Source: Akkermansiaceae bacterium
GTDB lineage: Bacteria > Verrucomicrobiota > Verrucomicrobiia > Verrucomicrobiales > Akkermansiaceae
Length of the DNA: 64,000 bases
NCBI GenBank assembly: GCA_015062045.1
Contig: SUVJ01000003.1
Location: 1 to 64,000 of the forward strand
Reading direction: 5' to 3'
Shown: piece by piece, positions 1,441-2,374 of the stretch
Numbering within the stretch: the first letter of the stretch is position 1
Layout: each line of letters opens with the position of its first letter
Translations under genes and position numbers: made by a program
Notes under the pieces: model-generated
The model's input: only the letters and a program-made list of their open reading frames with translations
Databases searched by the model: none
Told to the model about the DNA's origin: nothing

Positions 1441-1697
1441 TTACGCTTTTTCTTGTCGTTTTCGTTTTGCTTTGCAAAGAGCGTTGGATGTGAAGCCCTC
1501 TATTTCTTTCTACTCTCGGTACGAACGCAACATCCACGCTGTATGGATTTCGGCATTAAGTAAATTATATGAAGCTTTCAGTTGATTGATGGCTTTATCG
1601 CAGGATGTCCACTTTTCACGACAGCTACCAAAACATAGCTATCAGAGGCACCCGAAAACTCAGGATTGCCTGATTCATCTAAGTAAAAGAGCCTCAT
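1441..1697 (-). pseudogene. Degenerate DUF3800-family gene (5' part only)
   Basis: Minus strand reads MRLFYLDESGNPEFSGASDSYVLVAV then, after a frameshift, REKWTSCDKAINQLKASYNLLNAEIHTAWMLRSYRE[TAG]KEIEGFTSNALCKAKRKRQEKA; resembles DUF3800 N-termini (DESG...NAEIHTAWMLR); 3' part absent. Confidence 0.7.
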
Positions 1698-1709: not shown

Positions 1710-1776
1710 AAAAAAACGAGCGCCCAGGGTGGCTTCTGATAAGCGACGGAGTGCTAGAGCATCCCTTCCCAGGCGC
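1710..1776 (-). ncRNA. Candidate structured sRNA upstream of DUF3800 remnant
   Basis: Minus-strand promoter TTGACT(1810-1805)-16-TAGAAT(1788-1783); predicted +1 near 1776 is the first base of a 9-bp closing stem GCGCCUGGG/CCUGGGCGC (two wobble pairs) enclosing two hairpins, followed by U7. Confidence 0.6.
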
Positions 1777-2374
1777 AGAGCTATTCTAGCACTTTCAAAG
1801 AAGCAGTCAAGTCATTTTTATGATTCTCCACAGCGATTTCTCCACAGATTCGACACACGTATCCCAAAGTTTTGGGGAATATAGCCATTGTGTACTCAAA
1901 ATCGACGTGTTTTGTTGAATCTATCTTGGCGGGGTATCATGAAGCCCATTCATTGTCGCATGTTTTCTTTTATTCCAACATCGGCGTAAGTCGCTTACTT
2001 TTAATTTACTTACCTTGGCGTAGCCCGTAGGGCGAAGACAGGTAAATCGTAAATTGGGCATCTCTAAAAACTCGATAAATGGTAATTTGTAGGGGATACC
2101 CTGCGGGCGAATGCCCGCCGAAATCAGAGCCCCGGCGAGGGGCGATATATGGTAGCCCGGCGGTGTAGCCGCGTCAGCGGCGGAACCCCGGGGAAACGGA
2201 CAAACAAACCGGAACCCCGGTTGAGGGGTGACATAATGCGTGGCTTAAATATGGGGGTACATATAATGCCTTAATTCAAAGCGCAACATTATGCCACCCC
2301 CAATTGACTTGCGGGGCTGGGAATGTTAAATGTTTAATGTTAAATATTTAATGTGAGCGTGGGTCGAATTATCA

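Follow-up and report, generated by a model that had tools for sequence, protein, structure and literature searches.

Rfam holds a series of conserved RNAs that adjoin genes for DUF3800 proteins, among them DUF3800-I (RF02969) and DUF3800-IX (RF02968). These DUF3800 RNA motifs were found by comparative genomics, and we know of no function for any of them. In one, DUF3800-VI (RF02915), a 52-nt three-way junction with an 8-pair closing stem and two inner hairpins lies directly upstream of the DUF3800 gene. DUF3800 is a predicted RNase-H-fold nuclease and has been noted beside non-coding RNAs and CRISPR effectors, in Cas12a2 and type VI-F loci (PMC10910872, PMC12669027). A comparable arrangement of promoter, structured non-coding RNA, terminator and effector gene in a mobile-element setting is found in AbiF/RCd22 (abiF motif, RF03085), where RCd22 binds and neutralizes AbiF both in cis and in trans (PMC12373285). 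An RNA gene also lies immediately upstream of the protein gene in the type III toxin-antitoxin systems ToxIN and AvcID.

Here an RNA adjoining a DUF3800 remnant is analysed in a 64,000-nt stretch of DNA from an Akkermansiaceae bacterium (contig SUVJ01000003.1), referred to below as the window. A preliminary description of the window had reported a promoter, a 9-bp stem, two hairpins, a T run and the remnant, all of which were present and accurate base for base.

Predicted structure of the window RNA

On the minus strand of the window a predicted sigma-70-type promoter (1783..1810) comprises TTGACT (1810-1805), a 16-nt spacer and TAGAAT (1788-1783), and is followed after 6 nt by G1776, the first base of the RNA. 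A promoter of this quality at that spot was equalled in 0.5% of shuffles. The RNA itself, a 57-nt three-way junction (1720..1776, minus strand), was delimited by folding, a covariance model and covariation. The 5′ arm of its closing stem P1, GCGCCUGGG (1768..1776, minus strand), starts at the predicted +1 and pairs with the 3′ arm CCUGGGCGC (1720..1728, minus strand), forming 9 bp that include two G-U pairs. Within P1 lie hairpin H1 (1748..1765, minus strand; GGG-A-UGC-UCUA-GCA-C-UCC), which has a central 1x1 mismatch, and hairpin H2 (1732..1744, minus strand; GCUU-AUCAG-AAGC), whose letters vary among homologs with retention of pairing. The junction strands are AA (P1-H1), GUC (H1-H2) and CAC (H2-P1). 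P1 is followed by UCG and a run of seven T (1710..1716, minus strand), the predicted RNA end, and a transcript ending at 1710 would be about 67 nt long. The DUF3800 gene remnant (1441..1697, minus strand) begins downstream with ATG at 1697-1695 (starting MRLFYLDESGNPEFSG). Just past the remnant, a PEP-CTERM-tailed secreted protein is encoded at 165-1301 of the window.

Homologs and covariation of the RNA

Searched at the DNA level, the bacterial family yielded one relative, G002 of the same genus, in which homology starts exactly at base 1 of the RNA and extends into an intact DUF3800 gene. DUF3800 searches led to the further Akkermansia loci G113, G156, G170, G194 and L043 and to the decayed locus G163, and the RNA occupied the same place in all of them. 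Records L041-L043 belong to Akkermansia MAGs, of which two come from the gut of goat and of water buffalo. A covariance model of seven copies (R1), from which the divergent G113 copy was left out, retrieved it with a score of 40.9 bits (E 1.8e-6) and also located the RNA in three genomes without a DUF3800 gene, G195, G200 and G192, the last of which has an 8-codon stub left.

In the alignment of the 11 Akkermansia copies, which was made with R1 and is hence biased towards the structure, 99% of cells pair and two-sided changes occur at 6 of 19 pairs, two of them in P1; this count was reached in none of 500 shuffles, and control structures slid along the same alignment gave two-sided changes at 0 or 1 pairs. 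Examples are L043 (GCACCCGAG/CUUGGGUGC), whose two-sided changes are visible in a plain MAFFT alignment too, and G113, in which both H1 and H2 are rewritten. The MAFFT placement of G113 misregistered H1 and was discarded in favor of the covariance-model alignment.

Outside Akkermansia, the Akkermansia protein led to a DUF3800 protein of a Leptospira weilii plasmid (44% identity), and the protein search also reached G531, from another family of Verrucomicrobiota, and seven viral contigs; an RNA-pattern search added one further viral contig, L083. The RNA lies directly upstream at the Leptospira plasmid, at G531 and at all of these viral contigs. Scans of viral contigs with one Akkermansia protein, an Akkermansia protein alignment and an Akkermansia RNA pattern returned nothing. 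Except for G531, the non-Akkermansia copies share the pattern GCG-U-CUGG..GAG-U-CGC-CNA-GCG-U-CUC..CCAG-U-CGC, in which P1 and H1 are near-invariant and the H1 mismatch is U.U, as against A.C in the window. The letters of H2 change in this group while its pairing is retained, with two-sided changes at 4 pairs (7 of 500 shuffles) and a covariation score matched in 0 of 500. A second covariance model (R2), built from the non-Akkermansia group only, gave as its top match the Akkermansia G113 RNA (27.5 bits, E 5e-6), with G194 and G531 next; every one of these matches coincided exactly with the RNA, which makes the two groups look like a single family. When 340 class genomes were searched with R2, the 10 weak matches did not exceed chance expectation and none lay near a DESG- or DETF-type gene (see below).

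Across the family the RNA is 57-62 nt long. A -10-like box stands about 6-7 nt before it in most homologs, and this spacing suggests that the RNA probably starts at P1. The Akkermansia copies have a T run 3′ of P1, that of G200 being the shortest, and so do G531, L079 and L083; the Leptospira copies and L075 lack one.

By itself the window RNA does not fold remarkably well (z = -1.37; its fold is equalled in 22 of 200 shuffles), although its exact end-closed three-way-junction topology was obtained in only 7 of 300 shuffles. The z-score alone would suit chance hairpins in an intergenic region. However, all 16 distinct homologs, drawn from Akkermansia, the other Verrucomicrobiota family, the Leptospira plasmid and the viral contigs, fold individually to the same three-way junction, which 1-7 of 300 shuffles of each also do (about 1%). 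This shared topology, the covariation and the independent recovery of divergent copies by covariance models place the window RNA far beyond chance, and these comparisons confirm it as a genuine conserved structured RNA. The reading as chance hairpins, refuted by the 11-copy covariation and by the cross-detection with R2, deserves practically no credence.

Association of the RNA with DUF3800 genes

The RNA was found immediately upstream of an intact DUF3800 gene of the subfamily in 12 of 12 distinct loci examined (G002, G113, G156, G170, G194, L043, G531, the Leptospira-type L065, L073/L077, L074/L078, L076 and L075), so that the partnership is shown at every examined intact locus. The preliminary description had suggested a conserved DUF3800-linked RNA, and had named stem covariation and occurrence upstream of intact genes in relatives among its checks; the 11 Akkermansia copies and their relatives bear it out on these two points.

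In pairwise DNA comparisons homology set in shortly before the promoter and ceased where the DUF3800 gene ends; beyond these limits the flanks were unrelated. The RNA and gene therefore appear to move as one unit of about 1 kb, and promoter, RNA and DUF3800 gene are, judged by these homology limits, a single movable module. Its mobile settings include the Leptospira plasmid and the viral contigs, and the RNA is present as a single unit in all loci. No such RNA was seen on inspection of the sequence upstream of many other DUF3800 genes from the same bacterial family, indicating that the partnership is subfamily-specific.

Pfam assigned only DUF3800 to the subfamily protein, PADLOC had no model for this DUF3800 subfamily and a PDB sequence search with the protein returned no relative. 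When an AlphaFold model of the protein (pLDDT 72) was compared with the PDB, RNase HII was among the best matches, which were non-significant (best E > 0.5); the assignment of an RNase-H nuclease fold thus rests on published work (PMC10910872, PMC12669027).

Decay of the DUF3800 gene and orphan RNAs

The DUF3800 remnant of the window is frameshifted by a deletion, contains in-frame stops and lacks a large internal part, yet its C-terminal tail can still be recognized. RNA without an intact gene was found in seven loci: the window, G163, G192, G195, G200, L079 and L083. In G200 and G195 the promoter and RNA are retained with no DUF3800 gene after them. The gene that follows the RNA in G195 is the one lying upstream of the RNA in G194 (L089:105-989 versus L093:4710-6368), a local rearrangement in which DUF3800 was replaced and the promoter and RNA were kept. 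In two viral contigs an intact RNA (L079:916-975 and L083:4124-4183) accompanies a truncated DUF3800 gene, and these truncations are independent of the gene decay in Akkermansia.

Changes in the window lineage, polarized with G170 and G163, numbered 1 in the 57-nt RNA, where a G-U pair was kept, versus 16 over 206 nt of what is left of the gene. Of the latter, 15 could be assigned to a codon position, with 4, 1 and 10 at positions 1, 2 and 3, respectively. This third-position excess indicates that most of the changes in the remnant predate gene loss, and the decay of the window gene looks recent. An ORF of about 900 nt is, moreover, a mutational target about 16 times that of the 57-nt RNA. Since the decay is recent and the gene by far the larger target, survival of the RNA is neutral between hypotheses. 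The preliminary description had taken the intact RNA beside a broken gene as a pointer to an antitoxin or immunity role; this argument was rejected as uninformative, because such survival is expected under any hypothesis.

Related DUF3800-RNA pairs

In G161, G168, G153 and G169 a second DUF3800 family of Akkermansia was found, whose proteins carry DETF where the first has DESG. Its conserved RNA has a promoter, a three-way-junction-like fold (GACGUUGG..CCAGCGUC) and a T run, and lies on the strand opposite the gene, convergent with the gene 3′ end, in 4 of 4 genomes (L031:1295-1351, L032:859-915 and L087:840-896, plus strand; L088:1701-1757, minus strand in reverse-complement coordinates). Rfam gave no match to the RNA at L031 or L032. 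The convergent position excludes a 5′ leader and thus favors action in trans; by analogy a trans role is likely for the DUF3800-RNA kind, the DETF RNA being different from that of the window.

A DUF3800 gene with an architecturally similar RNA and a strong GC-rich terminator also occurs on small plasmids of E. coli, Klebsiella, Citrobacter, Enterobacter and Shigella. The enterobacterial plasmids with such related RNAs are 3.6-12 kb in size. An end-closed three-way-junction RNA (GAGUCAG..UGGCUU) precedes DUF3800 at L072:1576-1626 and likewise in L070, L071 and L097-L100. These RNAs look akin to DUF3800-VI; those of L070, L071, L072 and L097 did not match the DUF3800 families of Rfam. The small E. 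coli plasmids with a related pair make the role of DUF3800 RNAs directly testable in E. coli.

DUF3800-VI itself was found in Pseudomonas phage Marin (RF02915, 45.2 bits), upstream of a different DUF3800 gene. There the RNA and gene (L102:2622-3471) adjoin a cI repressor and a BRCT-domain gene, a position that would be typical of lysogen-borne defense genes. A DUF3800-VI-like RNA on a Paraburkholderia megapolitana plasmid (L101:2877-2929) scored 29.8 bits against the cut-off of 35, and the Rfam DUF3800-VI model may be too narrow.

Proposed function of the RNA

With confidence a little short of even, we propose that the RNA is a stand-alone non-coding partner that binds and restrains the predicted RNase-H-fold DUF3800 nuclease, as RCd22 does AbiF. 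The antitoxin idea is plausible on the architecture of the locus and the AbiF-RCd22 precedent (PMC12373285). P1 and the T run would stop most transcription before the gene, leaving the RNA in excess, and read-through would yield a small amount of DUF3800 protein. RNA contacts made by P1, H1 and the junction would keep this protein inactive, and the nuclease would be released once the short RNA is lost, as might happen when a phage halts transcription. The overall logic would be that of a type-III-like toxin-antitoxin or defense system with an RNA that lacks repeats, and in the window genome, where the nuclease gene is dead, the RNA would be a recent orphan. Conservation of P1, H1 and the junction strands with a variable H2 is the pattern of a protein-bound RNA. 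Against the excess-RNA step, the Leptospira copies and L075 have no T run and would require processing. The wider proposal, made more tentatively still, is that a repeat-free three-way-junction RNA of about 60 nt serves as antitoxin in a new family of toxin-antitoxin or phage-defense systems with the RNase-H-fold DUF3800 nuclease as toxin, and that all orphan DUF3800 RNA motifs work in the same manner.

The tight one-to-one linkage and co-mobility of RNA and gene, and the company that DUF3800 proteins keep with Cas12a2 and type VI-F loci (PMC10910872, PMC12669027), would also suit a ribonucleoprotein in which DUF3800 depends on the RNA as a cofactor or scaffold that activates or positions it for defense rather than inhibiting it. 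We regard this as a minor possibility. The RNA is blunt and end-closed, without a long variable unpaired segment, and this closed shape leaves no place for a guide and disfavors RNA-guided targeting; the recurrence of RNA without protein also speaks against a ribonucleoprotein, though it is non-discriminating. Action purely in cis, as a 5′ UTR attenuator or sensor of read-through into DUF3800, appears unlikely, although the RNA has the 5′ UTR position and terminator of such a leader, with the promoter before it, a T run behind P1 and the start codon farther on, and although the Rfam entry for DUF3800-VI, which is similar in architecture, carries the type Cis-reg. A leader is at odds with the convergent RNAs of all four DETF-family genomes and with the promoter and RNA retained in G200 and G195, and no alternative antiterminator pairing was noticed in an unsystematic look. 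Finally, the conserved H1 with its 1x1 mismatch and the conserved junction strands could mark the RNA as a decoy that mimics a cellular RNA of this shape cut by DUF3800. That explanation is quite improbable, given that a covariance-model search of the window's own genome returned no second similar RNA and that Rfam holds no relative.

Comparison with known systems

The proposed restraint of DUF3800 by the RNA has its closest precedent in AbiF/RCd22, from which the window class differs in its protein, DUF3800 rather than a member of the Abi_2 family, and in its RNA, one three-way junction rather than two repeated hairpins. Type III systems are defined by a tandem-repeat RNA antitoxin, whereas the window class has a single unit at every locus, without tandem repeats, and a different protein fold. 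The unpaired variable guide of OMEGA-like RNA-guided nucleases has no counterpart in an end-closed RNA whose loops and junctions are short.

As a covarying RNA adjoining DUF3800 genes, the window RNA is of the DUF3800-associated kind. Whether it was a known motif or a new class had been left open in the preliminary description; the latter was upheld, and none of the Rfam DUF3800 families matched. Searches of the window and 21 related loci against Rfam 15, including DUF3800-I to XI, found no family for this class at gathering score, and against 4227 families the 501 bases around the RNA scored only with two snoRNAs, at chance level (E 3 and 8). RF02915, in which membership takes at least 35 bits, gave nothing at E <= 10 at the RNA of G000, G113, G156, G170, G194, G531, L065, L075, L079 or L083. 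DUF3800-I, with a 115-position model, likewise did not match the window RNA. The topology, a three-way junction closed by about 8 bp, is that of DUF3800-VI, but in the Akkermansia/Leptospira class the closing stem has 9 pairs or else contains a U.U mismatch, H1 has its central 1x1 mismatch in most copies, and the conserved junction letters are the class's own. Sharing the topology of DUF3800-VI without scoring against RF02915, the window RNA represents, by these sequence comparisons, a new class within an established kind of RNA, the DUF3800-associated RNAs, and has no Rfam family of its own so far. Through this class, several phyla and mobile elements are connected with one compact module of RNA and predicted nuclease.
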